A stretch of DNA of 34,050 nt from a virus. Below, one piece after another: positions 2,494 through 32,006 of this stretch. Under the pieces are notes generated by a model. It made no database searches. It worked only from the letters and a program-made list of their open reading frames with translations, and was not told the origin of the DNA. Position numbers and translations under genes: made by a program. Positions within the stretch are counted from its first letter, which is position 1. Every line of letters starts with the position of its first letter. The DNA lies in the IMG/VR virus record IMGVR_UViG_3300033149_005718, positions 1 through 34,050 of that record, one strand, 5' to 3'.

Positions 2494-2503
2494 TTAATTG
2501 GGT

Positions 2504-2535
2504 GGGGAGGAGACAAAAAGTTTTACCTCCTCCCC
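2504..2535 (-). terminator. Hairpin between the TM2 gene and the primase-like gene
   Basis: GGGGAGGAG pairs perfectly with CTCCTCCCC (9 bp, 14-nt loop). In the leftward transcript it follows the TM2 stop codon and precedes the next ATG by about 10 nt. It could terminate or attenuate transcription, or mask the purine-rich ribosome-binding-like sequence it contains. There is no clean U-run after it. Confidence 0.4.
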
Positions 2536-2540
2536 GCTGA

Positions 2541-2771: not shown

Positions 2772-2799
2772 AATTGCTTTTTACTTATTTAAATGACCT

Positions 2800-5611: not shown

Positions 5612-6211
5612 TTATACTTCTTTCAAGGGCATCAAAAGGGCTTCTGCTTTTTGACCTGTCTCATTTCTCTCTCCAATAAACCTGATTGGGTTTTCTGGTT
5701 CTACTGGAATTTCAAGAATAACCTCATTTACTTTGCTATCTACAAAATCATTGAAAAAATCAACTATCCGCTTTAAGAATTTTTTATCTACGCTTATCCT
5801 TATATGCCTTCCTTTTCTCGTTAAGATTTCCCCATAACCGGGATATTCACCCTCAATTGTTCTTGATTTCATTCTGAGAAAGACATCTAAATCAGTAATA
5901 CCAAACTCAACCGAGCCTTGATTTTGGTTAAGAACCACGAAGTTTTCAAGTATAGGAAGGCTTGCTTTGGAAGGAAGGTTTTTCAGTATTTTTTCAGCCT
6001 CTTCTTTTGGCAGAATAAAGGGGTTAAAATTCTTCATTGCTTTCCCATCTTGAACTGGGAATTCACTCTCGGAAGGTGTTTGAACTCTTATCAAGGAGAA
6101 ACCATCGGTGGCAACACTTTCTTTGTTTGTCATATAAATACCAGCAATTTCTGGTCTTGAAGATTTATTGGTAGTAAAATTCTTTATTTTAAGATTAAAT
6201 TTGTTAAACAT
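5612..6211 (-). CDS. Sliding-clamp-like (DnaN-related) protein, short form
   Basis: 199 residues against about 370 for bacterial DnaN, so roughly two of the three clamp domains. Recognisable features are the N-terminal strand-turn GIYMTNKESVATDGFSL, the inter-domain motif IEGEYPGYGEIL (typical iEGxYPdy) and a C-terminal NPIRFIG ... ALLMPL like the PL--xx--MP ending of clamps. It would tether the replicative polymerase to DNA; a shortened clamp would need a different oligomer number to close a ring. AAAGGTC lies 23 nt before the ATG. No polymerase gene is visible in the window. Confidence 0.65.
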   Translation of the reverse strand: MFNKFNLKIKNFTTNKSSRPEIAGIYMTNKESVATDGFSLIRVQTPSESEFPVQDGKAMKNFNPFILPKEEAEKILKNLPSKASLPILENFVVLNQNQGSVEFGITDLDVFLRMKSRTIEGEYPGYGEILTRKGRHIRISVDKKFLKRIVDFFNDFVDSKVNEVILEIPVEPENPIRFIGERNETGQKAEALLMPLKEV

Positions 6212-7472: not shown

Positions 7473-7505
7473 ACCAGTTTCTCAATTGACCCCCGAGAAA
7501 CTGGT
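7473..7505. terminator. Perfect 11-bp hairpin
   Basis: ACCAGTTTCTC at 7473-7483 pairs without mismatch with GAGAAACTGGT at 7495-7505; the loop is 11 nt and contains a run of five C (five G on the minus strand). It lies between the large stem structure at 7524-7737 and the gene at 7213. No U-run follows on either strand, so its role in termination is uncertain. Confidence 0.4.
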
Positions 7506-11938: not shown

Positions 11939-12007
11939 AGAAAGAGATCAACCGCTTGACCTTAGAAAATTTTGATTTTAAACTTAATTAAACCTGAGTG
12001 CAATTCT

Positions 12008-13456
12008 GTGCCATTCTTTGATTTCTTAAAAAAAGACTTTTTCAAAAGATCTAAGCCCTCAGAAGAAGAGAGAAAAGAGAAGAGGGTTTTGACAATTGAT
12101 GAGTTGGTTAAAGAACTCGGGGTTGCAAGGGAGGGTGTTATAACTTCTTATGAGGCCGAGGAGAATCCAGATGATTTGGGTCCAGAAACCTATATTGAAA
12201 TGCAGAAAAACGATGGAGAGGTTCAGGCTATAGTTAGACTATTCACTCTTCCAATTATCTCAACCCCAGTTCATATTATCCCTGATAAGAACGATAAAGG
12301 AGAAAGGGATTTTATTGAAACCGTTTTTACTGCACCTCCAAGATTGGGCGGAATGACAACTCCGCTTCCTTTTATTATTGCTGACATGACGAGGGCTATT
12401 TTTGAGGGCTTCAGACTCTATGAAAAGGTAGCCCGAATCATAGAAGAAGGGAAATATAAAGGATTTGTAGGTTGGAAAAAATTAGCTCCAAGAGATTCAA
12501 GAACCATCAAACTAAAAGCGGATGAGCATGGTGGTTTTGCTGGTGCTAGACAAGAAGCAAGTTTTGGTGGAAAGTTATTCGAGGTCGATATTCCCCCAGA
12601 AAAATGTATGCTTTTCACCTTTCAAAAGGAAAAGCATTGGCTTTATGGAGAATCTATTTTAAAGACAGCCTTTTATCATTATGATAAGAAACACAAACTT
12701 TATTATATTGCTCACAAGAAAGCAGAAATCGAGTCGACTGGACTAAAGATCTTGAGAATAAATAATACAATGACCCCCGACCAAAAAAGAAAGGCGGAAG
12801 AGGGCGTTGATCAAATTGGTGTAAACTCGAGGATTACTCTTCCGCCAGGAGTTGACCTTGAAATTGAACGAGGTGGTGGTGGCTATGATCCACTTCCATT
12901 GATAGAGCATCACAATTTAATGATGGCTCGATCAGCATTATGTCAGGCAATAGATCAGGTGAAGTATGCTTACCCTTATGGAAAAGGAACAACATCTTCT
13001 CAGTTTTTGATCATGGCAATAGAGTCAATCATGAGACAGATGGAAGCAACGCTTAACACTTATGCTGTTGCTCCTCTTATTGATTTTAATTTCGGTACTT
13101 CTGCTTATCCTAAAATCAAATTTGAAAAAATTTCCGATGTTTCCAAACAATTCTTGATGGATGTCTTTGACCAAGTAATGAAAGCGAAAGTTCAACTTCC
13201 CAAGGGCTTCATTGATCAAGTTATTGATGAAACAGCAAAAACTCTGAATTTGAAGTGGGCTTTTAAAGATGAAGAGGAAAACAAGGAAGCGCTTAAAGAA
13301 TTTGAGAGAGGGAAACTGGAAGAGTCAAATAAACTTAAAATAAAGGCTCCTCCCACACCAAAGACACTAAAAACCAAACTACTAAAGGTCAAAAAGACAA
13401 AAGAAAACTTAGAAAAATGTTACCAATTAGGAAGGGAATTTGCTCGTACAGTTTAG
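12008..13456 (+). CDS. Phage portal protein, Mu gp29/DUF935-like
   Basis: 482 residues from a GTG start (MPFFDFLKK); a TTG at 11972 would add 12 residues and neither has an SD. Recognisable portal features are an early GEVQAIVRLFTLPIISTPV segment, the central HWLYGESILKTAFYHYDKK followed by HKKAEIESTG, and a long C-terminal helical region (QFLIMAIESIMRQMEATLN; ISDVSKQFLMDVFDQVMKA). Portals form the 12-subunit DNA entry ring at one head vertex. The length is normal for the family. Its stop overlaps the next start (TAGTG). Confidence 0.8.
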   Translation: MPFFDFLKKDFFKRSKPSEEERKEKRVLTIDELVKELGVAREGVITSYEAEENPDDLGPETYIEMQKNDGEVQAIVRLFTLPIISTPVHIIPDKNDKGERDFIETVFTAPPRLGGMTTPLPFIIADMTRAIFEGFRLYEKVARIIEEGKYKGFVGWKKLAPRDSRTIKLKADEHGGFAGARQEASFGGKLFEVDIPPEKCMLFTFQKEKHWLYGESILKTAFYHYDKKHKLYYIAHKKAEIESTGLKILRINNTMTPDQKRKAEEGVDQIGVNSRITLPPGVDLEIERGGGGYDPLPLIEHHNLMMARSALCQAIDQVKYAYPYGKGTTSSQFLIMAIESIMRQMEATLNTYAVAPLIDFNFGTSAYPKIKFEKISDVSKQFLMDVFDQVMKAKVQLPKGFIDQVIDETAKTLNLKWAFKDEEENKEALKEFERGKLEESNKLKIKAPPTPKTLKTKLLKVKKTKENLEKCYQLGREFARTV

Positions 13457-13572
13457 TGATCTTTTATGGCTACAAGATTTGTCCACGATGTGGCCAAAAG
13501 AATGATGATTCAAGAGCCTACTGCTGGTATTGTGGTTGGCCACTCGATGTAGTTTTGCGTCCAGATGACTAA
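13456..13572 (+). CDS. 38-residue zinc ribbon between portal and the giant enzyme gene
   Basis: A GTG start overlapping the portal stop by one base, and a TAA stop at 13570-13572 that overlaps the next ATG by 8 nt. The protein contains YKICPRCGQKNDD followed by YCWYCGWPLD, two CxxC knuckles 10 residues apart, a complete minimal zinc ribbon. The two-sided overlaps and intact motif argue that it is real despite its size and GTG start. It may be an adaptor for the neighbouring proteins. Confidence 0.65.
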   Translation: MIFYGYKICPRCGQKNDDSRAYCWYCGWPLDVVLRPDD

Positions 13573-16500
13573 TATGTTAGTGCCTTCTGATATACAAGAG
13601 TTATTAAAGCCAGGAAGGGTTGTACCCCTGCCAGCAAGGATTTTAGTTCCTCCACATGGACGCCTTATTTGGGAAGGAAAAAAGAAGGCGATTTTGAGTT
13701 CTCGTCTAACTGAAAAATATATTGGAATTCCAGTATATTTTGTTGAGGGAGATAAGGCCTTGGGAATCATTGAGATTAAAGAACCCAAAAAGATTAGTCT
13801 GGAAGAAGCAAAGAAATTGCGAAACAAACACATGGTTAGCGATGAAGAAATAAAAAGATGGTGGAAGGGAAAGAAGATTCTATATTATTACCCAATTGAG
13901 TTAATTTCAAAATTTGATCCGCCCAAAGAAATCATTCGTCCTCAGGGAGCACAAGTTTGGCTACAGACAGTTACATTTAAAAGTTTGGAAATACCGAGTC
14001 CATCAAAGATGACAGATGAGGAGTTGTTAGAGACTCATAAAAGATTGCATGAATTGTGGCATGAAGCTGACGATTCAAAAGAAGACATTATAAACTATCA
14101 TATTCTTGTCAAAGAAGAACTTAGAAAAAGAAAGCTTGGGCATAAAGATATTGATGAATTGGATGAAAAGTCAAGACTATTTCAAGAAAAGTTCAGTAAA
14201 TCGGGTTATAAAATAACGTTCTTTGGCACAAAAGGATTGGTTGAAGAAGAGGGACCAGGTCATCGTTTTCATACAGCAGTTTTATATGAGTTTAAAGGAA
14301 AGAGATTGTTGATTGATTATGGAGAAAAAAATCCAGGGAATTTAAAAGAAATCAAGCCAGACTATATACTTCTTTCACATAGTCACCCCGACCATATCGG
14401 AGGTTTAATGGACATGCCTGTTATTGTTTCTAAAGACACAGCGAAAGAAATTCCTGAACTCTATAAAGATTTCAACATAGATATTAGAAGTCAATTCGAA
14501 TCATATAAACCATTCAGGCTTGGTCCATTTAAGATAACTCCTATTCCAGTTTTACATAGCATTAGATCAAAAATGCATGTGTTTTTGATTGAAATGGGAG
14601 ATAAGAAGGTATTACAAGCAACTGATATTCTTGGATGGCACAAAGGAGATCGAGAGAAATTTGTGAAAGATCTTGATTTAGCCATTATTGATGGATCTTC
14701 TCTAGAAAGAACACTGGCAAGAAAAAAGGGAAAGGCTGGAGAGCCTTATGGTCATGCATCAATATTTCAGCAGTTGAAGAACTGGTATTTACCAGAGAAC
14801 ACAAAGAGAGTGATAATTACTCATCTTGGAAAAGAACCATTGGCTCTTGGAGACGAAGAACTCCTTAGAAGAGTGAAAGAAATAACCAAATTACCCGTTT
14901 ATATAGCACAAGACAGTGCTGTTATTAACCTTTCAGAGGATTTAGCCCCAATTTATACATCTGGGAAAGTAGAAGGAAGGAGAATCTATCTTAAAGAAGT
15001 TTTGCCATATTTTAAAAATTTCATTATCCAAAGGCCCTTGGCTTACCTTACTGGAGGTTTGGTGAACCAAGGTTCAACAAGAGGTGATATTGATATTTTA
15101 TTACCAGATTGGTTGAGTTTTGACATGCGAAGAATTATAGAATTTAGAATTGCAAGAAGTTTGCCTTGGTATCTCAGAAGGCGACTACACTTTGTATATG
15201 ATAGATTCTCAACTCCATTCACAAACGCTGTTCCACTCTTTAACCTTGTAATGGTAAGAAGCAAAGACGAAATTTTAAGACTTTCTGATATTGAAAAACA
15301 ACTAAGAGAAAAACCAAGAATTGCTGAAGCAGTGAAAGACGCAGAAGCTTCTGCTAGAGAAGACAAAATAAAATTGTTTAGATATTTTCTTCCACTTAAA
15401 CCGACCAGAGGATATTATCCAGGAAAAAGACAGACAATAGATTTGTTTATCGAAGTAATGGAGGCAAGTGGAACCTACCCATTCTACTCAACAAAGAAGT
15501 ACGACGGATTTAATTGTATTCTGATGAAAAAAGGAGATAAAATCAAAGCCTATTCCGAAGATGGGGAAGTTATAACTGATAGACTCCCAACTTTAGTCGA
15601 GGAAATAAAGAGATTAACTAAAGAAGATTGTGTGTTAATGGCTGAATTAGAATGGTGGGAAGATAACGATCATAAACCAAGAGAAGTAATTGCTGGTTAT
15701 ATTCATCGAAAAGAGACACCAGATGATTCTCATGTTGTTGCTAATGTTTATGATATGCCCTATTTCAAGGTTGATATTCATAATGAGCCTTTTGAAAAAA
15801 GATTGAAATTACTCGAATCCTTACCCTTCAAACAAAGAACATGGAAAATTCCAAATATCAAGATAAAATTGAATTTTGCTCCATATTTGCTTTCTAAAAA
15901 TAGAGAAGAATTAAGGAAGCATACCGAATTTTTAAGAAAGCTTCCCGGTTCCGAAGGCAATGTGGCTAAGACCAGAGATTTCAAGTACAACCTCAAAGGA
16001 ATTCGTTCTGGAATGGTAAAGTTTCATAACTCAACGGTTGTCTATGGCAAAGTCCTGAAAATAAAAGAAACAAAAGTAAAAGGAGTTTACAACTATTATT
16101 TCGGGATCGAACCTGGAAAATATAAAGGGAAAGTAGAAGAGCTTGAGAATGTTTTCTATCATAGAATCGGTAGAACATTCTCTACAAGTTTGAAGGCAAA
16201 AGTTGGAGATGTTTTGGAAATTGAGGGAGAAACACTCAATGTAGAACATAACCTTAAAGACGATACTTGGAATCTAAGTTTATGGGCTCCGAGGGTAATG
16301 AGAAAAGTAGATAGAAAAGCAGATACAATTAAGGAGGCTATCGAAAGAGCCAGAAAGAATTATTGTCTTCAAGAAAAAGAGATTACCGAAGATGGAGAAA
16401 TTATTTATCTCTCGGATATTGAAAAACTTAATTTGAAGCAATTTAGAGCGACTGGTATGGATGAGGATTTGAAGCATCCTAAAGAAAGAAAGAAGGAGTT

Positions 16501-19222
16501 AATTGCTGACCTTCGTTATCTTGGAAATTCTGCTTTTCCTCGCTTAAAACAAGGACTAAAATGGGGAGATTGGAAAATGATAGATGTCCTTAAGTATTTT
16601 GGTATTGGAGTAGATATCAAACCGAAGAAGAAATCTGGATCTTGGTATGAATGTTGGAAACGAGCCGAGAAATATATGAAAACAAGAGTCGAAAAACAAG
16701 CAGATCCCTATTTAGAATATCCAAAACCAGAAGAACCAAAAGAGTATGTTGTGCAACATCACTATAGAGGGAGATCTGTCCACTCTGATTTAAGAATAAA
16801 AATTGACGATTACCTCATAGGATGGACCATAATGGACATGATAAAGGGAAAAATTAATGAGCCTGTAATGAATCTTAAACAGGCAAAAAAGTATGATGCT
16901 CAAAATATATTTAAGATAGATTGGGAAAAAGGAGTTCCAAAACTAAGACCCGGAATAAAGCCTGGTTTTAAAGAAAAATACGCTGAACTAGCTGCTGCAA
17001 GAAAAGCACCAGAACCAGTTGAATGGCTTAATGTTGAAGGAATAACTCCTCCTGGTGAAGTTGGAGGAACGAAACGTTATCCTGGGGTCTTTCATATTAT
17101 CGATAAGGGATATTGTGAATTCGGAGCTCAAAAATGTATGAACGGAAAAACAGAGCTGATAGTAAAAGACGAGGATGGATATATAAAAAAGGCTGAACTT
17201 CGTTCTATAGTTGAACAAAGACGGAATGTTGAAGTTCTCACTCCACTTGGTTTCCAAAAGATAAGACGATATTTTAGAATTCCGCTTAATCCAAAGCAAT
17301 ATTTAAAAATTGTTTTGGAGAATGGATCATCTTTGAAATGTGATTTTCAACATCCGAGTTTTCGTTTCAATGAAGGAAAGATTGAGAAAGTACCTGCTCG
17401 ACAGTTGAAGGTTGGAGATCTAATTCCAATATTCTCTAATGGATATGAAGGAAGTTCAGGAAATTATGAATTAGGCAGATTTCTTGGTTTATACCTCGCT
17501 GAGGGTAGCAAAGCATTCAAGACTAATCAAGAACTCTCTTTTGCGTTTAATGAAACCGAAGAAGATTTAATTGAATTTGTTTCTAATTTCGGAAAGAAAT
17601 TCGGTGCCAAAGTTACAATTACAAAAAACGGAAGAAAAACAGGTAGGGGAATTAGCGTTAACCTATGTCAGGCGGGAGCTCTTAATGGACTTGTCAGACA
17701 ATTTGTTAAGACAAATAAACAAGGTTTAAGATCTGAGGTTTTCGGTTTAAGCTTAGAAGCAAGACGGGGACTCATAGATGGATTTCATCAAGGTGATAAT
17801 GATGATTGCGAAAAATATAAATATAAAGCAATTGGTCAAGGGAAAAAACACATTCAATTACTCAAGGATATTCATAAGTTGTTATTCAGTGTTGGGGAAA
17901 TCGCTTCTTTGAATATTTGGAAAGGGAGAGGTGGTAGAGTTACATTTTCTTTAAACAATTACAAAAAGGGATTTTGGCATCAATATTGGATTAATAATCA
18001 GTGTTTTATAAGGATTAAAGAGATAGAAATTCCCAAATTAAATGGAGAACGTTTTCTTTATGATATTGAATTAGAAGATGATCACCGAATAGTCTTAGCA
18101 AATGGAATTATAACTTCAAATTCTTACTTTCACGAATACTTCTTTTCTAAAGGCAAACTTAAAGGCAGGTGGTTTTTTAGACAACTTAAACCTTCTGAAT
18201 TTAGAGGAAAACAAGTGGAAAAACAAGAGGTCATTCCTCCATCTAGAGAAACTCAATTTAGACAAGAGGCTCCTTGGTTTCTTATCAAACCAATAGATGA
18301 GACTCCGTATGTTATTTCGGATGCTGCTGTTGAGAAGAAATGGATTCCTCCTTACGGAGTTTCTGCTTTACCAGAAAAAATAAAAAAGAAAATTCCGAAG
18401 GAATTTCAATACTGGAAAGAAAAAGATGAAACTGAAAGAATAAGGGTAAGAGATGAACTTGTTAAGAAACTTGGGAAAGTATTAATTGAAAAATCATTAA
18501 GTCCAGGTGCAAGGTGGGCTAAAGCTGCTTACCGTTATGTGTTGGCTCAGCAACAACTCACACTGTGGATTAGAAGTTCTCTTGAGGTTAAAAAGCAAAG
18601 AGTCAAGAAGGCACTCGAAGAATTTGAAAAACTAAGACCATTTAAGAAGGAATGGCTGAAAGATGCTATAAAATGGTTAGAATTACGACCAAATGAAATC
18701 AAGGGACTTATTATTGAGGAACTAGAAGTGAGGAAATCGAGGGAAGTTGATTTCGTGTTACAATGGCATTTCTTTAGAGGTCAAAAGGTGATTAGGGCTG
18801 GAGTGAGCCAACAACACTGGGATTTGAGACTTGATTTTCCAGAAAGATCAGGATTAATGCATTTTGTATTAGAACAAAATCCGTTGAAAAACAATGAAGT
18901 AACAGCCATTTGGAAACCTTGTAAATATAAAGAATGGATGAATGTTTCTCAATATCTTCCACCAGCCAACGAAAGAGCAAAGATGTCGAAAGAGGAGTTG
19001 GCTAAATTGCCACCCGGAATTGAGGAGGCTAATCCCACAAAGGAAACTGCTGCTTATATTAAAATTTTGGATAAAGGAAAAGCTATAGTTTTTGAAGACT
19101 CGGATTCATTCAAGAAGTTTGAGTTTAAAGGGAAAAAACTTAAAGGATTGTGGATTTTCATAAGAGAGAATACTAGTGATTTTTGGATAATGAAACGGTC
19201 GGAATTACCAGAGGCTAAGTAA
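13565..19222 (+). CDS. Giant end-processing fusion: MBL + nucleotidyltransferase + ligase + two LigD-type PE domains
   Basis: 1,885 residues, about 1,556 after intein removal. Domains in order: an N-terminal region of unknown fold; metallo-beta-lactamase fold with H272-S-H274-P-D276-H277, then H331, D354 and H420; pol-beta-type nucleotidyltransferase with GSTRGDIDI (D508, D510); ATP-dependent ligase adenylation domain with KYDGFN (K645 as lysyl-AMP site) and an OB-fold near 825-915; LigD 3'-phosphoesterase-like domain (H1065/H1066, H1073-S-D1075-L-R1077); intein 1191-1519 inside that domain; a linker; a second PE-like domain (H1735, H1751-W-D1753-L-R1755). Ligase motif I ends in N instead of R and motif IV looks weak, so sealing activity is not certain. 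Location between portal and protease suggests a role in genome ends, packaging or virion-delivered repair. Confidence 0.75.
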   Translation: MTNMLVPSDIQELLKPGRVVPLPARILVPPHGRLIWEGKKKAILSSRLTEKYIGIPVYFVEGDKALGIIEIKEPKKISLEEAKKLRNKHMVSDEEIKRWWKGKKILYYYPIELISKFDPPKEIIRPQGAQVWLQTVTFKSLEIPSPSKMTDEELLETHKRLHELWHEADDSKEDIINYHILVKEELRKRKLGHKDIDELDEKSRLFQEKFSKSGYKITFFGTKGLVEEEGPGHRFHTAVLYEFKGKRLLIDYGEKNPGNLKEIKPDYILLSHSHPDHIGGLMDMPVIVSKDTAKEIPELYKDFNIDIRSQFESYKPFRLGPFKITPIPVLHSIRSKMHVFLIEMGDKKVLQATDILGWHKGDREKFVKDLDLAIIDGSSLERTLARKKGKAGEPYGHASIFQQLKNWYLPENTKRVIITHLGKEPLALGDEELLRRVKEITKLPVYIAQDSAVINLSEDLAPIYTSGKVEGRRIYLKEVLPYFKNFIIQRPLAYLTGGLVNQGSTRGDIDILLPDWLSFDMRRIIEFRIARSLPWYLRRRLHFVYDRFSTPFTNAVPLFNLVMVRSKDEILRLSDIEKQLREKPRIAEAVKDAEASAREDKIKLFRYFLPLKPTRGYYPGKRQTIDLFIEVMEASGTYPFYSTKKYDGFNCILMKKGDKIKAYSEDGEVITDRLPTLVEEIKRLTKEDCVLMAELEWWEDNDHKPREVIAGYIHRKETPDDSHVVANVYDMPYFKVDIHNEPFEKRLKLLESLPFKQRTWKIPNIKIKLNFAPYLLSKNREELRKHTEFLRKLPGSEGNVAKTRDFKYNLKGIRSGMVKFHNSTVVYGKVLKIKETKVKGVYNYYFGIEPGKYKGKVEELENVFYHRIGRTFSTSLKAKVGDVLEIEGETLNVEHNLKDDTWNLSLWAPRVMRKVDRKADTIKEAIERARKNYCLQEKEITEDGEIIYLSDIEKLNLKQFRATGMDEDLKHPKERKKELIADLRYLGNSAFPRLKQGLKWGDWKMIDVLKYFGIGVDIKPKKKSGSWYECWKRAEKYMKTRVEKQADPYLEYPKPEEPKEYVVQHHYRGRSVHSDLRIKIDDYLIGWTIMDMIKGKINEPVMNLKQAKKYDAQNIFKIDWEKGVPKLRPGIKPGFKEKYAELAAARKAPEPVEWLNVEGITPPGEVGGTKRYPGVFHIIDKGYCEFGAQKCMNGKTELIVKDEDGYIKKAELRSIVEQRRNVEVLTPLGFQKIRRYFRIPLNPKQYLKIVLENGSSLKCDFQHPSFRFNEGKIEKVPARQLKVGDLIPIFSNGYEGSSGNYELGRFLGLYLAEGSKAFKTNQELSFAFNETEEDLIEFVSNFGKKFGAKVTITKNGRKTGRGISVNLCQAGALNGLVRQFVKTNKQGLRSEVFGLSLEARRGLIDGFHQGDNDDCEKYKYKAIGQGKKHIQLLKDIHKLLFSVGEIASLNIWKGRGGRVTFSLNNYKKGFWHQYWINNQCFIRIKEIEIPKLNGERFLYDIELEDDHRIVLANGIITSNSYFHEYFFSKGKLKGRWFFRQLKPSEFRGKQVEKQEVIPPSRETQFRQEAPWFLIKPIDETPYVISDAAVEKKWIPPYGVSALPEKIKKKIPKEFQYWKEKDETERIRVRDELVKKLGKVLIEKSLSPGARWAKAAYRYVLAQQQLTLWIRSSLEVKKQRVKKALEEFEKLRPFKKEWLKDAIKWLELRPNEIKGLIIEELEVRKSREVDFVLQWHFFRGQKVIRAGVSQQHWDLRLDFPERSGLMHFVLEQNPLKNNEVTAIWKPCKYKEWMNVSQYLPPANERAKMSKEELAKLPPGIEEANPTKETAAYIKILDKGKAIVFEDSDSFKKFEFKGKKLKGLWIFIRENTSDFWIMKRSELPEAK
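17135..18121 (+). mobile_element. Intein with LAGLIDADG homing endonuclease
   Basis: Residues C1191 to N1519 of the host protein (329 residues), followed by S1520 as the downstream splice nucleophile. The N-terminal block CMNGKTELIV matches the CxxGxT start; block B is CDFQHPSF with its His; the C-terminal block is DHRIVLANGIITSN. The penultimate residue is Ser instead of the usual His, a known but less common state. Two LAGLIDADG motifs, LGRFLGLYLAEG (1303-1314) and GLIDGFHQGD (1402-1411), carry the acidic residues E1313 and D1411. The insertion is in the C-terminal strand region of the first phosphoesterase-like domain. Confidence 0.85.
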
Positions 19223-19234
19223 TACTTGACCCTT

Positions 19235-21766
19235 ATGAGCACGCCATATAAAATAGATTTTGAATTTCCGTTATATTTGAGTGAAAAGAAAGATGGTGAA
19301 CGTTTTATCTTAGAAGGCTACGCTGCTGCTAATGATTTTGATTTTCAGAACGATATAATTTCAGATAATGCTCTTAAAAGAGCAGCGAAAAAATTCGCAA
19401 AAGATGGAAAGCTTTGTTTGAATCATACGAAGGAGATAGTTGGGAAAATATTGGATTGTCGTTTTAAGAATGGAAGAATTTGGATAAAAGCTGAAGTTAC
19501 TAAGCCAAGGGTCATTGAAAAAATTAAGTCGGGAGAGTTAAACTGCCTCTCCGTAAAAGGAGTGGTAGATTCAAGAAAGATTGAACGAATTTTCTCTCCC
19601 GAGTTAAGCTTAACTGTAAAGGTCGTTACAGATTTGGACCTTGAGGAAGTGTCTTTAGTTCCTCAGGGTGCGAATCCAGAAGCTAAAACGATTCGGTGGT
19701 ATATTTCAAGAGCCACCGAATCAGCAGAAAAAACTATGGAAAAAAATTTGGCTGAAGATTTTGAGAATTTAAGTGAGATTGAAGAAGGAGAGCCAGAAGA
19801 TGTTGAGCAAGTTGATGAAACCCAAGGAACAGAAGAGGTCAAAGAGGAACCAACAGAAGAGACAGACAACAAGGAAACCAATGAGGAAAAAAGCAAAGAA
19901 GAAACTAATGAAACTGAGGGTGGTGAGAAGGGGAACGAAACAGAAGAAACTAAAGAATCAGAAGATGGAACTAAAGAAAATGAGACTGAGGAAGCGGAAA
20001 CCAAGCAAGATAGCGAAGAGAACAGTACAGAACTTTCAGAAACTTATATTGAAAAGAGCGCATATACAAGATGTATGAGTCAGGAACTCAAAAAGGGAAC
20101 TCCATTTAAAGAAGCAGCCAAAATCTGTAGTCAAAAACTTAGTAAGGTTGGAAAATCATTGAAAATAGAAAAATCTGCTTATACAGATTGTATGAAGAGA
20201 GAATTAAAGGCTGGTAAAACAATGGCAGAGGCAGCTAAAATTTGTAAAGAAGAGACTACAGAGAAAGCTAAAAAGAAGGAGAGTTATCCTTATGGTTATC
20301 CTTATCCGAAAGAAAGAAAAAAGCGTCCCTATCCTTATTTCTACCCTTATGGCTACCCTTATGGTTACCCCTACGGTTATCCGTATGGATACCCTTATGG
20401 ATATCCTTATAGATATCCAAAACTGAAAAAGTCAGAAGAGGGTGGTTTGGTTGGAGCTATCAAAGGGGCATTGGATAGTCTTATCAAGACTGTGAAGGAT
20501 GAGAAAGTAAAGGAAGAACTAAAAAAGATCAGAGATATGGTCAACAATTTGAGAAGAGCTTACCCTTCGGCTTATCCGTCTCCCAAAAACCTATCAGAAA
20601 AAGAAGATGAGAAGGTAGTATTTCAGATAATGAATCCAGGTAATATAGAACTTGGAGAAAAATCAAGATTTAGAAAGGAGCTCCTGAGGGTTGGTACATG
20701 GTTCCATGGTGCTGCGAAAGATGGGATTCTTGAAGTTACAAAGGATACCTTAAAGAAAATCGTTGAAAACTTTAAGAAAGGAATTATCGATAATGTATTT
20801 GTACCACTCGGACATCCAGTTGGAGATGATCCATCAAAGAACGTTGGAGAAGTTGTTAATTTGGAGGCAACAGATGACGGAAAATTGATTGCTGAAATTG
20901 AAGTTAAAGACGAAACAGTTGCTGAAAAGATTAAAAAGGGTTTAATCAAGGGGATTTCTGCTAGTATTGCTGAGAATTACATTAAGAAAGATACAGGTGA
21001 AGAAGTTGGACCCGTTTTATTCCACGCTGCTTTAGTTAGTGAGCCTTATATCAAAGGAATGGGACCATTTGTCCCATTGTCTGAGATAACCGAAGATAGT
21101 TTGATTGTTCCTATTGTGAATAGTGAAGCTCCCTTGACCCTTGAAGAAATCGGACTTAAACTAAAAAGAATAGAAGAAAGGTTGAATCTGAGTGAAGAAA
21201 GCACAGAAGAAAATAAAGAAATGGAAGAAAATAAAGAAGAGAATAAAGAAGAAACCAAAGAGGAGGAAACCTCAGCAGAGGGGACCTCGGAATCGGGAAC
21301 CGAGTCCTCTGGAGGTGGTGAAACCACGGAAGAGGAGAAGGAAACCGAAACTGAGGAAACCAAAACTGAGGAAACCGAATCCGAGGCGGTTGAGGCTAAG
21401 AAAGGGGTTGACTTAGCCGAAGCCGAAAAAATGTATAAGGAACTCTTGCAGGAAGGAAAAGTTACTCCTGCAGAAAAAGAGCTCCTTATACCATTGCTCA
21501 CTTCAGATACTGAAATTGAGCTATCCGAAGGCAAAAAACTTGCCTCTGGAAAAGCTCTTTATAAATATCTGAAGGAGCAACCTCCCAAGTTTTCATTGAG
21601 TGAAAGTGGAACCTCTGAAAAACCAGATGCTATAGAAAAGAAAGAAGAAATTCCAAAGGAGGTAGATGAGATACTTGAAAAGATGGATTTCAGCGATCCT
21701 GAGGATAAGACAGCGATTTGGGAAGAGTTTAAAAAACAAAAGGGAGGAGAATCAACCCCATTCTAA
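19235..21766 (+). CDS. Dual-protease and scaffold fusion (XkdF-like plus Mu I-like)
   Basis: 843 residues from ATG 19235. Residues 1-160 resemble the XkdF/S78 prohead protease: LCLNHTKEIVG (H64) and IKSGELNCLSVKG (S106) are the His and Ser sites. An acidic Glu/Thr-rich linker follows (about 175-270), then two copies of a SAYTxCMxxELKxG...EAAKIC motif near 273 and 313, and a YPYG repeat tract (about 350-393). Residues 470-620 form a second protease-like domain with LGHPVGDDP (H527) and KGISAS (S575/S577), like Mu protease I. The Glu-rich C-terminus (AEKMYKELLQEGKVTPAEKE) resembles the Mu scaffold part. It would direct head assembly and then mature the head. Confidence 0.7.
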   Translation: MSTPYKIDFEFPLYLSEKKDGERFILEGYAAANDFDFQNDIISDNALKRAAKKFAKDGKLCLNHTKEIVGKILDCRFKNGRIWIKAEVTKPRVIEKIKSGELNCLSVKGVVDSRKIERIFSPELSLTVKVVTDLDLEEVSLVPQGANPEAKTIRWYISRATESAEKTMEKNLAEDFENLSEIEEGEPEDVEQVDETQGTEEVKEEPTEETDNKETNEEKSKEETNETEGGEKGNETEETKESEDGTKENETEEAETKQDSEENSTELSETYIEKSAYTRCMSQELKKGTPFKEAAKICSQKLSKVGKSLKIEKSAYTDCMKRELKAGKTMAEAAKICKEETTEKAKKKESYPYGYPYPKERKKRPYPYFYPYGYPYGYPYGYPYGYPYGYPYRYPKLKKSEEGGLVGAIKGALDSLIKTVKDEKVKEELKKIRDMVNNLRRAYPSAYPSPKNLSEKEDEKVVFQIMNPGNIELGEKSRFRKELLRVGTWFHGAAKDGILEVTKDTLKKIVENFKKGIIDNVFVPLGHPVGDDPSKNVGEVVNLEATDDGKLIAEIEVKDETVAEKIKKGLIKGISASIAENYIKKDTGEEVGPVLFHAALVSEPYIKGMGPFVPLSEITEDSLIVPIVNSEAPLTLEEIGLKLKRIEERLNLSEESTEENKEMEENKEENKEETKEEETSAEGTSESGTESSGGGETTEEEKETETEETKTEETESEAVEAKKGVDLAEAEKMYKELLQEGKVTPAEKELLIPLLTSDTEIELSEGKKLASGKALYKYLKEQPPKFSLSESGTSEKPDAIEKKEEIPKEVDEILEKMDFSDPEDKTAIWEEFKKQKGGESTPF

Positions 21767-22230: not shown

Positions 22231-23169
22231 ATGTTAGTAAAAACTGATATTCCCAAACTATTAGAAGCTGGAATTCGAAGAGAGTTCATGAAAGAGTTTG
22301 CTAAGAAGGAGGCTGATTGGCAGAAAATTGCTTTGAGAGTCAATTCTACAAAAGATTCAGAATCTTATGCTTGGCTTGGCTCTGTTGGTGATCTTCATGA
22401 GTGGAAGGATGAAAGAATTCCAGAAGCATTATACGAACACTCTTACTCAATCAAAAACCTAGATTGGGAGGCATCTATTGCTGTCAGTAGGAACGCCATA
22501 GAGGATGAACAATACGGCCAGATCAAATTGAAAGTAAAACAACTGGCTAACAGAGCAAGAAGGTTCTGGGGCAAACAAGTATTCAAGATTTTGTCTCAGG
22601 GATACCTCTCAACTGGTGACACTGGAATTTACAATGGAAAGGATTTGACTTGTTATGATGGTCAACCCTTCTTTTCATCTTCTCATTCAGAAGGTGATTC
22701 TGGTACCCAAAGCAATAAAGGAACTGTCCAGTTAACATACGCAAATCTTCAGACAGCAATCCAGACAATGATGGGTATTAAGGATGACAAAGGAGAGGAG
22801 TTGGATATTCGTCCAGATTTGCTTGTTGTCAATCAGACCAATATGTTCAAGGCTAGAGAAATTCTGAATAGCACTTATTATCCAGAGGAAGGTTCAACTA
22901 CAGCCAAACTTGCAACCAACGTTTTGAAAGGATTGCTAGATTTGTATGTAACTCCCTATGTTGATGCTAATGACTGGTTTGTTTTTGACACCTCAGGTGT
23001 GATTAAACCAGTTATTCTTCAGGTTAGAAAAGACATTGAATTCTCTAGCCTGTTAACCGGCCCAGAAGCCTTCTTGAGGAAGAAACTTTACTTCGGTGTT
23101 GATTGGAGAGGAATGATTGGATGGGGTCTCTGGCAATATGCTTACGGTTCAAGTCCTGACTGGGCATAG
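22231..23169 (+). CDS. Major capsid protein, Mu gpT-like
   Basis: 312 residues, the normal size for Mu gpT (PF10124, about 305). Diagnostic parts are the N-terminal LLEAGIRREFMKEFAKKEAD, YAWLGSVGDLHEWKDERIP, the segment YDGQPFFSSSH, and RPDLLVVNQTNMFKAREILN, followed by YVDANDWFVFDT. These are well conserved in gpT-type capsid proteins, which build the icosahedral head. No N-terminal scaffold domain is present, in keeping with the separate protease-scaffold gene. It is the last head gene before a structured intergenic element. Confidence 0.88.
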   Translation: MLVKTDIPKLLEAGIRREFMKEFAKKEADWQKIALRVNSTKDSESYAWLGSVGDLHEWKDERIPEALYEHSYSIKNLDWEASIAVSRNAIEDEQYGQIKLKVKQLANRARRFWGKQVFKILSQGYLSTGDTGIYNGKDLTCYDGQPFFSSSHSEGDSGTQSNKGTVQLTYANLQTAIQTMMGIKDDKGEELDIRPDLLVVNQTNMFKAREILNSTYYPEEGSTTAKLATNVLKGLLDLYVTPYVDANDWFVFDTSGVIKPVILQVRKDIEFSSLLTGPEAFLRKKLYFGVDWRGMIGWGLWQYAYGSSPDWA

Positions 23170-23185
23170 CTTCAATAGTTAATCA

Positions 23186-23314
23186 AAGAATCCTTTAAGT
23201 CCCCTACCAAAGGGAGAATCTAACCTTGCTAGATTCGTTGAACTTTGGTAGGGTGGAGAGGCAAGGATTCTTGGTGGTTGGGGATTTGAGCCTCTCCCAG
23301 AATTCCCAACTACC
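23186..23314 (+). other. Compact interlocked pseudoknot after the capsid gene
   Basis: Four long helices share one short stretch: 23186-23195 with 23263-23272 (10 bp), 23202-23212 with 23243-23253 (11 bp, with an inner 7-bp hairpin), 23255-23262 with 23290-23297 (8 bp), and 23273-23282 with 23305-23314 (10 bp, one G-T). The third helix crosses the first, and the fourth crosses the third. The helix strands lie end to end with almost no spacer. It could terminate, process or protect the capsid message. Confidence 0.55.
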
Positions 23315-23327
23315 ACTCAATAAATAT

Positions 23328-24314
23328 ATGAGAAAAGAGATTCCATTCAAATATAACAAAGAATATTTCAAAAAGATTTCAGATGCTTATGAGAAAACGG
23401 CAAAGAAACTGAGTAAAATCCGTTGGGATTTCGTTAAGGAGATAAAACCAAAAATTGTTCTAGACTACGGAGCTGGAGCGAATTTTTTGACCAAATTTGC
23501 ACCGAATGGAATTACAGTGGATTCTTTTGATGTTGGAGATTATCCAGTAAAATATACAGGAATCAGGCATAAGCATTATGACCTGATTTTTTTGTGCGAC
23601 GTTTTAGAGCATATTCCAGATTTCAGGTCTATCGATAAATTGTTTAAGTTAACTGATTATTTTTATATTTCGCTGCCAATTATTCCAGAGGGGAAACGAT
23701 TGAGAAAATGGAAACATTTCAAATTTGAAACTAGGGAACATCTTCATTTTTTCACTGAACGAAGTTTGGATCTATTTTTTGAAGCCAGAGGGTTCAAAAG
23801 AATAAAGAGTGGTTATCCAGAATCTGAGTTTGGTCCTAGAAGTGATATTTACAGTGCAGTATTCAAACGAGAGAAGATTGTCTTTACAAATGGAATTTTC
23901 GATTTATTTCACCCAGGCCATCTATACCTCTTAAGAGAAGCCAAGAAACTTGGTGACTATCTTGTAATTGGGATAAATTCAGATAAATCGGCTGAAAGGA
24001 TAAAGCGGAAGCCAATAGTGAGTGAATCAGATAGAAAACAAATACTTGAAAGTCTGGAATTTGTTGATAAGGTTGAGATCTTTGATGAAAGCACCCCTTT
24101 GCGTTTAATAAAACAAATCAAACCAGATATATTGGTTAAAGGGGGTGATTATACAAAAGATACAGTTGTTGGAAAAGATTTTGTTGAAAGTTATGGAGGA
24201 AAAGTTGTAATTATTCCTCGTTATAAAGATTACTCAACAACAAATACAATAAGGTTTATTAAAGGCCATTCTTTGAAAAAAGAAGGCAATGAAAGTAGCA
24301 ATTGTAGGAGATAG
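23328..24314 (+). CDS. Fusion: SAM methyltransferase + HldC/RfaE2-type heptose-1-phosphate adenylyltransferase
   Basis: The ATG at 23328 (MRKEIPFKYNKEYF) is preferred over an upstream frame start at 23226, which would lie inside the structured element; 328 residues. Residues 1-180 are a class I SAM-methyltransferase fold (motif VLDYGAGANFL; DLIFLCDVLEHIPDF). Residues 185-320 are a cytidylyltransferase-fold enzyme: FTNGIFDLFHPGH (H195xxH198), SDKSAERIKRKPIVSESDR and DILVKGGDYTKDTVVG closely match HldC/RfaE2, which adds AMP to D-glycero-beta-D-manno-heptose 1-phosphate. The fusion with a methyltransferase is unusual. Overlaps the kinase gene by 26 nt. Confidence 0.8.
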   Translation: MRKEIPFKYNKEYFKKISDAYEKTAKKLSKIRWDFVKEIKPKIVLDYGAGANFLTKFAPNGITVDSFDVGDYPVKYTGIRHKHYDLIFLCDVLEHIPDFRSIDKLFKLTDYFYISLPIIPEGKRLRKWKHFKFETREHLHFFTERSLDLFFEARGFKRIKSGYPESEFGPRSDIYSAVFKREKIVFTNGIFDLFHPGHLYLLREAKKLGDYLVIGINSDKSAERIKRKPIVSESDRKQILESLEFVDKVEIFDESTPLRLIKQIKPDILVKGGDYTKDTVVGKDFVESYGGKVVIIPRYKDYSTTNTIRFIKGHSLKKEGNESSNCRR

Positions 24315-25071
24315 TTTCATAGATGAATATGTGTTAGGAGAGGTTGAAAGAATATCTCCTGAAGCCCCCGTCCCTGTCTTAGATGTAAAGAAGAAAGAAG
24401 AACGTGGTGGGGGTGCAATCAATGTAGCAAATAATCTATATGCTTTGGGTGTTGACCTAACTTTATTTACAATTACAGACATGACTAAACTGCCCTACCG
24501 AGTAGTTAGTCCTAAAGGTGTGACCTCCTTAAGGAAAACAAGATTTATCGGAAATGGTTTTCAGTTATTGAGAGTAGACGAGCCAAAGAAATACTTAAAA
24601 AATGATTTAAAACGAATGATTTATCCACGGAATGAAGACTTTGATATAATTGCTTTTGTTGATTATGATAAGGGAATAATTTCTGGTGGGAGGGCAACAA
24701 TAGTTGATTCGAAAAAGAAAGATCTTTCAGTTTTTAAAGGAACAAAATATCTGAAAGTGAACGAAAAGGAATATGCAGATGCTCAACATAAAGAAATTTT
24801 TGAAAAAGCATTTGTTACAAAAGGAAAACACGGAATTGATTTTTATGAATACGGAGAATTCAGATTCAACGAACCAACTAAAGCAAGAGACGTTGTGGAT
24901 GTCACAGGAGCTGGCGATACAGTCTTGGCAGCAATGATTTATTGCCTAGTTAATGGATGGAACGATCCAAGAACAATGATGAGAGTTGCAAACAAGGCTG
25001 CGGGGATAGTTATTAGTAAATTTGGGACATCAATCGTTTCAGAAACAGAATTATGTCTAAAAAAACTTTGA
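24289..25071 (+). CDS. hldA: HldA-like heptose 7-phosphate kinase (PfkB family)
   Basis: 260 residues, shorter than the usual 310-330 of this family. The N-terminus MKVAIVGDSFIDEYVLGEV leads into RISPEAPVPVLDV, a hallmark of RfaE1/HldA; GGGAINVANNLYALGV is the substrate-binding loop; DVTGAGDTVLAAM carries the catalytic aspartate D210. It would phosphorylate D-glycero-D-manno-heptose 7-phosphate at C1. The gene follows the adenylyltransferase fusion; in many bacteria the two activities are fused in HldE, here they are separate and in reverse order. Overlaps the next gene by 19 nt. Confidence 0.8.
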   Translation: MKVAIVGDSFIDEYVLGEVERISPEAPVPVLDVKKKEERGGGAINVANNLYALGVDLTLFTITDMTKLPYRVVSPKGVTSLRKTRFIGNGFQLLRVDEPKKYLKNDLKRMIYPRNEDFDIIAFVDYDKGIISGGRATIVDSKKKDLSVFKGTKYLKVNEKEYADAQHKEIFEKAFVTKGKHGIDFYEYGEFRFNEPTKARDVVDVTGAGDTVLAAMIYCLVNGWNDPRTMMRVANKAAGIVISKFGTSIVSETELCLKKL

Positions 25072-25691
25072 AAAAAGTGAAAAAGGTTTGGGGATCAGAG
25101 TTATGGATTGTTAATAAGGAATATTGTGGGAAATTGTTAAAGTTAAAAAGAGGATTTCAGTGTAGTCTGCACTATCATAAAAAGAAAGATGAAACCTTTT
25201 ATGTGGTCAGGGGGAAAGTTCTTATGGAAATAGGTGAAGAAAGAGTAATAATGAAACCAGGAGATTCTTGTCATATCCCACCTGGAAAACTCCATAGATT
25301 TACTGGTTTAACAGATGCTCAAATTATTGAATTCTCAACTCATCATAGGGATTCCGATAGTTATCGAAAGGAAAAATCGAAAAAGGCCTGTCTTCGAACT
25401 GCCTATGATTATGATGGAGTTGTTTCGAAGGGGATCAAAGCAGAAAGAGGAGCCCCAATTATTACAGGAAGAAGTTTTGAGGAATTAAATAGAATTTCGG
25501 AAAAGATTAGAAAACGCCATCCTATCTACTTCAATCCTGTTACTATTAATGAAAAGGAGTTAAAAAATGAGATTTCTTGGAAGGCTCGAATGATCAAGGA
25601 ATTGAAAATAGAACGGTATTATGAAGACAACCCAGAAATAATAGTAAAACTCCAAAAACTTTGTCCAAATTGTGATATAGTTAAAGTTTAA
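25053..25691 (+). CDS. Cupin-HAD phosphatase fusion
   Basis: 212 residues. Residues 10-100 form a cupin like the ManC/type II phosphomannose isomerase C-terminal domain: HYHKKKDETF (H40, H42, E47) and PPGKLHRF (H81) are the metal ligands. Residues 108-212 form a small HAD domain: YDYDGVV (D119, D121), IITGRS (T138), K177 and YYEDNPE (D192). The HAD half could supply the GmhB step (removal of the C7 phosphate) of ADP-heptose synthesis and the cupin half a sugar isomerase step, but neither is proven. Its place between kinase and epimerase supports the pathway reading. Confidence 0.7.
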   Translation: MSKKTLKKVKKVWGSELWIVNKEYCGKLLKLKRGFQCSLHYHKKKDETFYVVRGKVLMEIGEERVIMKPGDSCHIPPGKLHRFTGLTDAQIIEFSTHHRDSDSYRKEKSKKACLRTAYDYDGVVSKGIKAERGAPIITGRSFEELNRISEKIRKRHPIYFNPVTINEKELKNEISWKARMIKELKIERYYEDNPEIIVKLQKLCPNCDIVKV

Positions 25692-25693
25692 CT

Positions 25694-26494
25694 ATGAAAA
25701 GAATATTTATAACAGGAGGTTTTGGTTTCATTGGTTCAAATTTAGTAAAGGCTCTCCAAGATAAATATGAGTTAGTTGTTTGGGATAAAGAGTTATCGAA
25801 GGGAATAGATATTAAGAATGATTTCGATTATATTTATCATTTAGCAGCTAACTCTAATTCGAGATTCCCCGATGATGTAGAAATGTATGAAAACAATATC
25901 GTTGCATTTCTAGAGGTCTTGAAATTTGCTGTTAAGGGGAAAGCTAAACTAATCTATACTTCTAGTGCAGCCGTTTATGGTTCAAGAAGAGAGAAGATTA
26001 TTAATGCTTATGCTCACTCAAAGATTCTTATTGATGAAATTGTCAAGCAATTTATTAAGACGCATCCCCGATTGAAAATAGTTGGTCTTAGACCATTTAA
26101 TTGTTATGGTCCAGGTGAGTTGATGAAAGGTAGAAACGCAAGTGTGATTACTCAATGGAGAGAGCAAATTCTGAAAGGCGAGAGACCGAAGATTTTTAAG
26201 GGGAAATACAAAAGAGACTTTATTTACATAAAGGATGTAGTTAAGGGTCTCAAACAAGCGATGAGACTGAAAAATGGAATTTATGATTTAGGGACGGGAG
26301 TAGCAACAGATTTTAGAGATGTTTTAAGAATCGTTATAAAAGTCTTAGGTGTAAAAGTTAAACCTAAATTCATAAAAAACCCATACAGTGAAACTTATCA
26401 AGAGTATACAAAGGCCGATTTAAATTGGGGATTCAAACCAGATTTCACTCTTGAACAGGGAATAAGAGATTACTTTGAAAATGAAACTAATTGA
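25694..26494 (+). CDS. hldD: HldD-like ADP-glycero-manno-heptose 6-epimerase / NAD-dependent epimerase
   Basis: 266 residues (HldD is about 310). The Rossmann start RIFITGGFGFIGSNLV binds the dinucleotide; YAHSK holds Y106 and K110; LRPFNCYGPGELMKGRNASV matches HldD's FNVxGPrExHKGxMASV segment; KRDFIYIKDVV and YDLGTGVATDFRDV, then YQEYTKADL, also follow HldD. It would convert the D-glycero to the L-glycero form of ADP-heptose, or act on a related nucleotide sugar. Together with the three genes before it, this gives most of the pathway; no GmhA isomerase was seen. Confidence 0.78.
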   Translation: MKRIFITGGFGFIGSNLVKALQDKYELVVWDKELSKGIDIKNDFDYIYHLAANSNSRFPDDVEMYENNIVAFLEVLKFAVKGKAKLIYTSSAAVYGSRREKIINAYAHSKILIDEIVKQFIKTHPRLKIVGLRPFNCYGPGELMKGRNASVITQWREQILKGERPKIFKGKYKRDFIYIKDVVKGLKQAMRLKNGIYDLGTGVATDFRDVLRIVIKVLGVKVKPKFIKNPYSETYQEYTKADLNWGFKPDFTLEQGIRDYFENETN

Positions 26495-26801
26495 ACTATC
26501 TTTATTGCTTTTTGCTCACTTTTTTGGAGACTTTGCTCTACAACCAAGTTGGATGAGCAAACTTAAGGCCAAAGATCCCTGGGTTTTATTTGGTCACTGC
26601 GTTATTTGGACTGGTGTGATTTCTTTCATACTTTCCTATCTCGGAATTCTAACTTTATGGAAGGTCTTATTTTTGTTTTTTGGTCATCTGTTTTGTGATC
26701 TTTCGAAACATCGCTTGTATCATAAACTTCCATTCCATATTAAGAATTCAATTGATCAAGGCTTTCACCTTTTTCAGTTATTAATTGTATGTTTCCTCTA
26801 A
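26481..26801 (+). CDS. DUF3307-like membrane protein
   Basis: 106 residues. ATG at 26481 overlaps the epimerase stop by 14 nt. The protein has three to four hydrophobic helices; the N-terminal LFAHFFGDFALQPSWMSKLK and the repeated HxxxDxxxH-like pattern (GHLFCDLSKHRLYH) match the DUF3307 family, whose members are small membrane proteins carried by phages and bacteria. The conserved His/Asp residues within helices could form a metal or active site. Its function in a glycosylation operon is unknown; a lipid-carrier or lysis role could be imagined but is not shown. Confidence 0.65.
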   Translation: MKLIELSLLLFAHFFGDFALQPSWMSKLKAKDPWVLFGHCVIWTGVISFILSYLGILTLWKVLFLFFGHLFCDLSKHRLYHKLPFHIKNSIDQGFHLFQLLIVCFL

Positions 26802-28964: not shown

Positions 28965-28966
28965 GT

Positions 28967-29887: not shown

Positions 29888-29889
29888 GT

Positions 29890-31186: not shown

Positions 31187-31187
31187 T

Positions 31188-32000: not shown

Positions 32001-32006
32001 CTAAAT

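Follow-up and report, generated by a model that had tools for sequence, protein, structure and literature searches.

Organisation of the locus

The locus described here lies in the IMG/VR viral record IMGVR_UViG_3300033149_005718, in a stretch of 34,050 nucleotides (the window) which was analysed as a whole. It contains a large multidomain gene placed between the genes of the portal and the head maturation protease (Table 1), a position already proposed in the initial annotation and supported by Pfam and PHROG matches on both sides. The micro-ORF separating portal and large gene has a counterpart at the equivalent place in four related loci (L003, L004, L006 and L007), and a cement protein is also encoded downstream, among the head genes. 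Neither Rfam nor a tRNA scan gave matches in the window. A misassembly or frame artefact could be ruled out, the open reading frame being intact in several independent contigs. A sliding clamp had been suspected at window positions 5612-6211, which would have suggested a bacterial host, and was not supported on checking.

Table 1. Coordinates in the window of the large gene, its neighbours and the parts of its product (aa, residues of the chain)
Feature	Position	Strand	Evidence or remarks
Portal protein, directly 5' of large gene	11972..13456	+	Pfam Portal_Mu (PF06074) E 1.9e-31; PHROG portal E 2e-37
Zinc-ribbon micro-ORF, 38 codons, GTG start	13456..13572	+	CxxC...CxxC; between portal and large gene
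Large multidomain gene	13565..19222	+	1885 codons with intein; 1556 aa after splicing
ASCH-like domain, aa 20-141	13622..13987	+	Profile of 9 members against 2dp9/1wk2 (TTHA0113), E 0.0019
Helical segment, aa 148-213	14006..14203	+	LHxLW...ELDE; present too in L016, L050, L051
MBL-fold hydrolase, aa 215-457	14207..14935	+	Pfam Lactamase_B_2 E 3e-10; ligands H272, H274, D276, H277, H331, D354, H420
Pol-beta-type nucleotidyltransferase, aa 475-613	14987..15403	+	G497, G498, D508, D510
ATP-ligase adenylation domain, aa 625-820	15437..16024	+	K645, D647, G648, E694, E797, K802, K819
OB-fold of ligase, aa 821-915	16025..16309	+	Model aligns with ligase structures through residue 930
Helical linker, aa 970-1040	16472..16684	+	By eye, like recurring helical module in L004, L012, L013, L050-L054
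PE1 N-terminal part, aa 1050-1190	16712..17134	+	Q1064, H1066, H1073, D1075, R1077
Intein inside PE1, aa 1191-1519	17135..18121	+	Cys start, Asn end, Ser +1
PE1 C-terminal part, aa 1520-1550	18122..18214	+	Sequence alignment
PE2, LigD-type, aa 1727-1881	18743..19207	+	Q..H and HxDxR kept
Head maturation protease (XkdF-type), directly 3' of large gene	19226..21766	+	Pfam Peptidase_S78_2 E 6e-6; PHROG head maturation protease E 2e-19
Major head protein, Mu gpT-like	22231..23169	+	Pfam E 1e-59

Domain architecture of the chain

From the N to the C terminus, the chain consists of an ASCH-like domain, an MBL-fold hydrolase, a pol-beta-type nucleotidyltransferase (NTase), an ATP-ligase with its OB-fold and two LigD-type phosphoesterase domains (PE1 and PE2). 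The initial annotation had recognized all of these except the ASCH-like domain, which it missed. The ligase-OB part and PE2 were confirmed by predicted structure and the MBL part by Pfam, while the ASCH-like domain and PE1 are supported by profiles and the NTase by an invariant motif. The AF2 model is poor at the NTase and in much of the MBL part (block pLDDT about 30-85), and the fold searches mainly concern ligase-OB and PE2. PHROGs matched the chain in the MBL part only.

The ligase and MBL regions match the families expected for them, and not unrelated folds. The adenylation domain, including its lysine, was recovered by Pfam (DNA_ligase_A_M, E 2e-14) and in a profile comparison with 4eq5 (E 4.5e-15), and the predicted structure of residues 1-930 aligns with DNA ligases over about 520-930, thus covering the OB-fold as well, with a Z of 22.5 over 294 residues for human LIG1. 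The nearest ligases in both profile and structure are of the LigI type, and the match is far better to DNA ligases than to RNA ligases. In the case of PE2, the fold was examined on the model of the intein-free L003 (residues 475-629): the LigD 3'-phosphoesterase 3p43 was matched with a Z of 16.0 (1.9 A over 119 residues), and the top 7 Foldseek matches were all LigD phosphoesterases. The identity of PE1 comes from sequence, LigD phosphoesterases being the sole PDB matches of its family profile (best E 0.0027).

The complete HxHxDH reported for the MBL part holds, all seven metal ligands being invariant in 7 sequences. Its profile is nearest to 1zkp (E 1.2e-6) and RNase Z (7e-6), lies also near PhnP and, more weakly, matches the anti-Pycsar enzyme Apyc1. 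The ASCH-like profile covers positions 6-119 of its match to TTHA0113, the structure of which we take to be an ASCH domain, and Pfam ASCH itself reached just E 0.11, in one member (L004). ASCH domains have a link to RNA. As regards the NTase, the DxD noted before is invariant and follows a GG/GS motif in 13/13 sequences (GS in L054), but assignment to a curated family did not follow: NTP_transf_2/Polbeta matches were weak, found in some members and below the curated cut-offs (best E 0.02), and a match to TdT reached E about 1. At the position of the third carboxylate the window group has Pro, and archaeal-type members and L014 have Asp/Glu, in a region where the alignment is uncertain and model confidence low.

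The intein spans C1191 to N1519 and includes a LAGLIDADG_3 match (Pfam E 0.007). Exactly this stretch is missing in L003 and L005 (1563 aa) and L004 (1557 aa), where the junction reads GAQK^SYFHEYF, which confirms the 1,556 residues given earlier for the spliced chain. The intein is missing also in L006; its absence from relatives rules it out as a part of the enzyme. L006, L007 and L051 have different inteins, located at catalytic motifs, and such placement, like that of the window intein inside PE1, fits a protein that needs to work after splicing.

Active sites of the ligase and phosphoesterase domains

The ligase keeps the canonical KxDG nucleophile (K645, with D647 and G648), the glutamates of motifs III (E694) and IV (E797) and the first Lys of motif V (K819). 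Several other positions are replaced in the window chain: the motif I Arg (KxDGxR) is Asn, the motif Ia Arg is Glu (E665) and the second motif V Lys is His. Motif Ia is acidic in 17/18 readable family members, while L060 and 14 archaeal cellular ligases have Arg at both motif I and motif Ia. In terms of LigD residues, the window ligase has lost the equivalents of Arg486, Arg501 and Lys637; in LigD itself, R501A lowers nick sealing and K637A abolishes it (PMC8656161).

In the phosphoesterases, the metal site is kept (equivalents of LigD His42, His48, Asp50 and Arg52), and the equivalents of His84 and Tyr88, both of them essential in Pseudomonas aeruginosa LigD, are Glu and Trp in PE1. Some members have Gln or Lys for the Glu; of 16 PE1 sequences, nearly all have the Trp. 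ANMV-1-type members have lost the PE2 motif.

Far from having lost all catalytic residues, the homologues keep the nucleophile Lys and the main acidic residues almost without exception, which suggests sites put to a new use and not inactive ones. The most conserved columns among 14 divergent sequences (31% mean identity) include D508, D510, K645, D647, E694, E797, K802 and K819 (rank-sum p 1e-7). As the replacements are themselves conserved, the alignments suggest that function in the altered ligase and PE sites has changed and not been lost.

Relatives and their place in head operons

In relatives, including those of the ANMV-1 virus and of archaeal (pro)viruses, the domains of the chain recur in shuffled order, divided or fused, and their usual place is between the portal and the head protease. 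On the upstream side, a portal gene adjoins the chain or is close to it in the window, L003-L011, L013, L014, L016, L051, L052, L054 and ANMV-1, its assignment in L003-L008 and L010 being by similarity and position, not Pfam. The portals concerned are of different types (Portal_Mu, Phage_portal and Phage_portal_3). The protease follows closely downstream in the window, in L003-L006 (by similarity to that of the window), L009, L012, L014 and L051. In L050 it lies about 6 kb downstream, with no portal identified, and in ANMV-1 the portal adjoins the chain and the protease is far off in the record. The link to the head operon that had been suggested is physical in L052, where ligase, OB-fold and PE are fused to a DUF2213-type head protease (DUF2213 E 2e-10). 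The MAG that is the source of L007, and of L007 only, is labelled 'bacterium'.

A further recurrent part is a D12 adenine methyltransferase, joined to the chain in L006, L013 and L051 and adjoining it in L014; in L006 it is inserted beside the point of the helical linker. Its presence fits a role in DNA protection.

In the ligase tree, the head-operon ligases cluster together (support 100/99), to the exclusion of nine archaeal cellular ligases and of a second, ordinary-looking ligase of the virus of L016; the head copy of that virus is therefore additional to the latter. Among the records examined, no other virus of the set had a second ligase of the same Pfam family. When the proteins of the window, L016 and L013 were searched by tblastn in 50,697 phage records, the ligase part was matched by ANMV-1 alone, and the remaining L013 matches listed were to its methyltransferase. 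Degenerate-pattern scans of viral contigs recovered relatives with A3, none with ANMV-1 alone or A2 as seed, and nothing beyond themselves with L013 and L016.

Comparison with known systems

The closest described protein is the 'ATP-dependent DNA ligase' of ANMV-1 (AJP62006, in KP703175), which shares 27-39% identity with the window chain over aligned segments and also has NTase, ligase, OB-fold, PE1 and PE2 in one chain straight after the portal. In contrast to the window chain, it has neither MBL nor ASCH domain, its PE2 motif is lost and the PE1 Arg52 equivalent is Met. It is annotated as a ligase only, and the text of the 2015 paper has no mention of a ligase.

Bacterial LigD also joins a ligase and a 3'-phosphoesterase in one chain, with the same PE fold and metal-site residues. 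However, the window chain has a LigI-type ligase core and the replacements at His84/Tyr88 and Arg486/Arg501 described above, and, in agreement with the initial annotation, no AEP/LigD-type polymerase domain was matched by Pfam in it or its close relatives. Ku was found in 0/10 virus records (the window virus and nine related), these being viral records only, possibly incomplete and such as would not show a Ku supplied by the host; the Bacillus subtilis control gave the expected match. A simple LigD homologue was rejected on these grounds. The phosphoesterase of archaeal NHEJ (Methanocella paludicola, 5dmp) is homologous to the PE domains of the window but, unlike them, is not fused in a long chain encoded at a viral head location with no Ku found. 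Similarity to MBL phosphodiesterases of the Apyc1/YhfI/RNase Z type, in HxHxDH and profile, concerns one domain of the chain only; Apyc1 has been described as an anti-Pycsar enzyme (PMC9117128).

The packaging of polyvalent proteins in virions is an established concept (Iyer et al. 2017, PMC5512222). Like them, the window family has long multi-enzyme chains encoded in the portal/head operon, with shuffled domains and recurring helical modules. Ligases appear in that work only as ATP-grasp RNA ligases, with no account of a DNA ligase combined with a PE, and a literature search found no description of a head-operon ligase-PE chain.

Proposed function and alternative explanations

The reading that we favour, at a probability of about one half, is that of a polyvalent head protein which is packed in the virion and tends the ends or nicks of viral DNA with altered chemistry. 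Produced alongside the portal and the shell protease, the chain would be taken up by the procapsid, and viral DNA ends or nicks would be its target, either within the head or at host entry. Packaging is supported by the recurring portal/protease location and, indirectly, by the protease fusion of L052, while the distant protease of ANMV-1 and the arrangement in L050 count against this reading. Lysyl-nucleotide formation and the sealing or adenylation of 5' ends would fall to the ligase-OB part, and the binding or trimming of 3' ends to the PE domains; the MBL domain would hydrolyse a phosphodiester of nucleic acids or cyclic nucleotides, and the NTase, with the adenine methyltransferase in some relatives, would modify ends or DNA. 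Given its altered active sites, the chain probably does not catalyse the same reactions as LigD and LIG1. Of the toolset for trimming, extending, de-blocking and sealing proposed at the outset, the domain identities stand but its standard character does not, key residues of the ligase and PE1, and probably of the NTase, being replaced.

An alternative is a part in counter-defence or RNA repair. The ASCH-like domain, the RNase Z-like MBL, the NTase and the ligase core might then rescue or rework RNA, for example cleaved tRNA, or destroy cyclic-nucleotide signals of the host. The MBL profile and the RNA link of ASCH domains would agree with this, as would the L050 ligase, which matches mRNA_cap_enzyme (4.5e-6) and RNA_ligase (0.003), both under the curated Pfam cut-offs. 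Sequence conservation alone gives no discrimination between DNA and RNA. Nevertheless, the ligase is far nearer to DNA ligases in profile and structure, ligase-OB and PE folds belong to DNA-acting families, the PE domains being of the LigD DNA-repair type, and the recurrent extra part is a DNA methyltransferase, all of which makes an RNA-directed role unlikely.

The replacements themselves can be read in another way, as marks of domains that bind DNA ends or nucleotides and serve as internal head proteins, parts that hold DNA or sponges for host signals, with little or no enzyme activity. Residues on which the model enzymes depend are gone from the ligase and PE1, and probably from the NTase, as is the PE2 motif from ANMV-1-type members. 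This would suit such binding shells, but we consider them distinctly improbable, as nucleophile, acidic and metal residues persist almost throughout very divergent members and the substitutions (acid at motif Ia, Trp for Tyr88) are conserved too. An ordinary replication or repair ligase, merely co-transcribed with the head genes, is very hard to sustain: the scarcity of second ligases in the set would favour it, yet the separate clade, the motif Ia change against Arg in 14/14 archaeal cellular ligases, the ordinary ligase kept besides by the virus of L016, and the recurring head-operon place with its protease fusion argue against it.

A wider extension of the polyvalent head protein reading is put forward tentatively, and we regard it as rather doubtful: a virion-carried, Ku-independent machine for repair and protection of DNA ends, present in tailed viruses of archaea and probably bacteria, in which a ligase site reshaped by the acidic motif Ia and a LigD-type PE site reshaped by Glu/Trp would permit nucleotidyl transfer beyond that of known ligases. 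If packaged, the chain would add a member built on a DNA ligase to the polyvalent virion proteins and would stand as a Ku-free viral counterpart of LigD. In any case, these two features define a ligase/PE subgroup with directly testable chemistry. That ASCH, MBL, NTase, ligase, PE and D12 methyltransferase modules are shuffled beside portals suggests that the viruses share a requirement for DNA processing or protection during packaging or entry. Moreover, MuF is encoded nearby in some members, as is also the case with polyvalent virion proteins.

Domain composition and gene neighbourhood

In this virus contig of 34,050 bases, the large multidomain gene lies, as the initial annotation had placed it, in a head operon: family searches identified a Mu-type portal upstream of it, while the head protease follows downstream, along with a cement protein and a major head protein of the Mu gpT type. 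In the encoded chain, Pfam recognised an ATP-ligase adenylation domain (residues 630-820, E 2e-14) and an MBL domain (264-420, E 3e-10), together with weak LigD phosphoesterase (PE) and LAGLIDADG matches. The ligase and OB-fold identity was corroborated by a profile match to a Thermococcus ligase (E 4.5e-15) and by an AF2 model of residues 1-930 (mean pLDDT 68; about 90 in the ligase part), which matches archaeal ligases as well as human LIG1 (Z 22.5 over 294 residues). The MBL assignment also stands, every metal-binding position being invariant in seven sequences; the nearest solved structures by profile search are 1zkp, RNase Z, ELAC1 and PhnP, with Apyc1 matched weakly. Likewise, two LigD-type domains (PE1 and PE2) had been correctly recognised: LigD PEs are the sole PDB matches of the PE family profile and the top seven Foldseek matches (E 2.4e-6) of a model of residues 931-1563 of the related contig L003, where VIA aligns them to PE2 (Z 16.0, 1.9 A, 119 residues).

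The proposed pol-beta nucleotidyltransferase (NTase) carries a GG/GS motif followed by a DxD invariant in 13 sequences; its family HMM matches are weak. The third carboxylate position aligns with Asp or Glu in archaeal-type members and contig L014, and with Pro in the window chain and its close relatives. The N-terminus is ASCH-like, a nine-member profile matching, over its full extent, the ASCH domain structure TTHA0113 (E 0.0019).

Inteins

Four IMG/VR relatives share 72-77% identity with the chain. Residues 1191-1519 are precisely missing from L003/L005 and L004 (junction GAQK^SYFHEYF), so the spliced length of 1,556 residues first suggested is confirmed. L006 also lacks this intein, has a different one in the HxDxR loop of PE1 and carries an inserted D12 adenine methyltransferase. 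In L007, an apparent intein immediately follows ligase motif I and the contig stops within it, while the archaeal-genome member L051 has two, at ligase motif V and in PE1. This placing at catalytic motifs suggests that the spliced product may be under selection.

Family members and module shuffling

A related fusion occurs next to a portal elsewhere, a check that the initial annotation had proposed: the ANMV-1 virus, the only match to the chain among 50,697 phage records, encodes NTase-ligase-OB-PE1-PE2 immediately downstream of its portal. Further members come from Methanophagales and Methanosarcinales contigs (L008-L010), IMG/VR contigs (L011-L016) and archaeal genomes (L050-L055); three portal families occur in the family loci, and modules are shuffled between members. 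The first ORF of L051 reads helical-ASCH-D12 methyltransferase-MBL-helical-NTase-ligase-OB, followed by an ORF with three PEs and an S78 protease (E 3.5e-13), and L050 has MBL-ASCH-NTase-ligase-OB with three PEs after it. In L014, NTase and ligase are separate ORFs; next come an ORF that combines methyltransferase and PE, and a probable protease. L052 joins ligase-OB-PE-DUF2213 protease-helical-NTase in a chain that is single apart from one in-frame TAG.

The head-operon ligases form one group separate from cellular-type ligases (support 100/99), and the virus of L016 has a second, ordinary-looking ligase 40 kb from its head copy. No Ku was found in the window virus and nine related virus records, in agreement with the first reading.

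Active-site departures

The NTase and ligase catalytic positions are among the most conserved of 547 alignment columns (rank-sum p 1e-7), and the ligase and PE active sites depart from the standard systematically across members. The motif Ia Arg is replaced by Glu or Asp in 17 of 18 readable members and by Met in L053, L007 being left out since its intein interrupts the site. Most members have Asn, His or another residue in place of the motif I Arg, and the window group and L013 have His for the second Lys of motif V. The 14 archaeal cellular ligases read all keep Arg at motifs I and Ia, as does the second ligase of the L016 virus. PE1 retains its metal residues, with the His84 equivalent mostly Glu and the Tyr88 equivalent nearly always Trp.

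In P. aeruginosa LigD, His42, His48, Asp50, His84 and Tyr88 mutants are inactive; in LigD, K637A abolishes nick sealing and R501A reduces it (PMC8656161). Because the ligase and PE1 residues depart from the standard and such LigD mutants are impaired, the complete end-processing toolset originally claimed is not established; the chain may work by a changed chemistry or serve in binding.

Proposed role

A polyvalent protein (PMC5512222) that would enter the procapsid accords with the fusion to a head protease and with the repeated location beside portal and protease genes; a role inside the head, packaging, delivery and every reaction of the chain are proposals. The ligase fold, the PE domains and the recurrent D12 methyltransferase make DNA ends or nicks the likeliest substrate, although the ASCH and MBL parts make RNA or cyclic nucleotides possible. 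Multi-enzyme chains like LigD and polyvalent proteins of virions are already known kinds; what is new is that the two are combined, how broad the family is, that a member is fused to a head protease, and that non-standard ligase and PE sites are conserved.

Coordinates of the multidomain gene and of features in the window and related records
Record	Position	Strand	Feature
Window	13565-19222	+	Large multidomain ORF, 1885 residues
Window	13456-13572		38-codon zinc-ribbon ORF (CxxC...CxxC...DD) between portal and large gene, running into the latter's start; similar counterparts in L003, L004, L006, L007
L004	17967-18812		LAGLIDADG-like ORF inside head-gene region; possibly another intein or homing gene
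L001 (ANMV-1, KP703175)	1913-3193		Annotated as "MutT-like phage hydrolase"; a portal protein (PF06381, E 3e-22)
L013	3953-5431		Mu F-like protein (E 1e-10) flanked by the portal and the ligase chain; weak sub-threshold metallopeptidase-type match
L050; L051	4578-8234; 2132-7078		Chains ending in a cysteine-rich segment after the OB fold, possibly a metal-binding module
L052 (archaeal contig)	7491-7493		In-frame TAG that splits the ligase portion of the fused ligase-PE-protease chain; may be a genuine break or a recoded (pyrrolysine-type) codon
Window	23226-33793		Late region running on into sugar-nucleotide/glycan-type genes (methyltransferase-cytidylyltransferase, PfkB-type kinase, cupin, epimerase-like, glycosyltransferase- and methyltransferase-like ORFs), suggesting that the virus may modify virion or host glycans
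Window	32007-32870		Zinc-ribbon/NUMOD3/DUF559-like ORF within the glycan region, possibly a homing or Vsr-type nuclease
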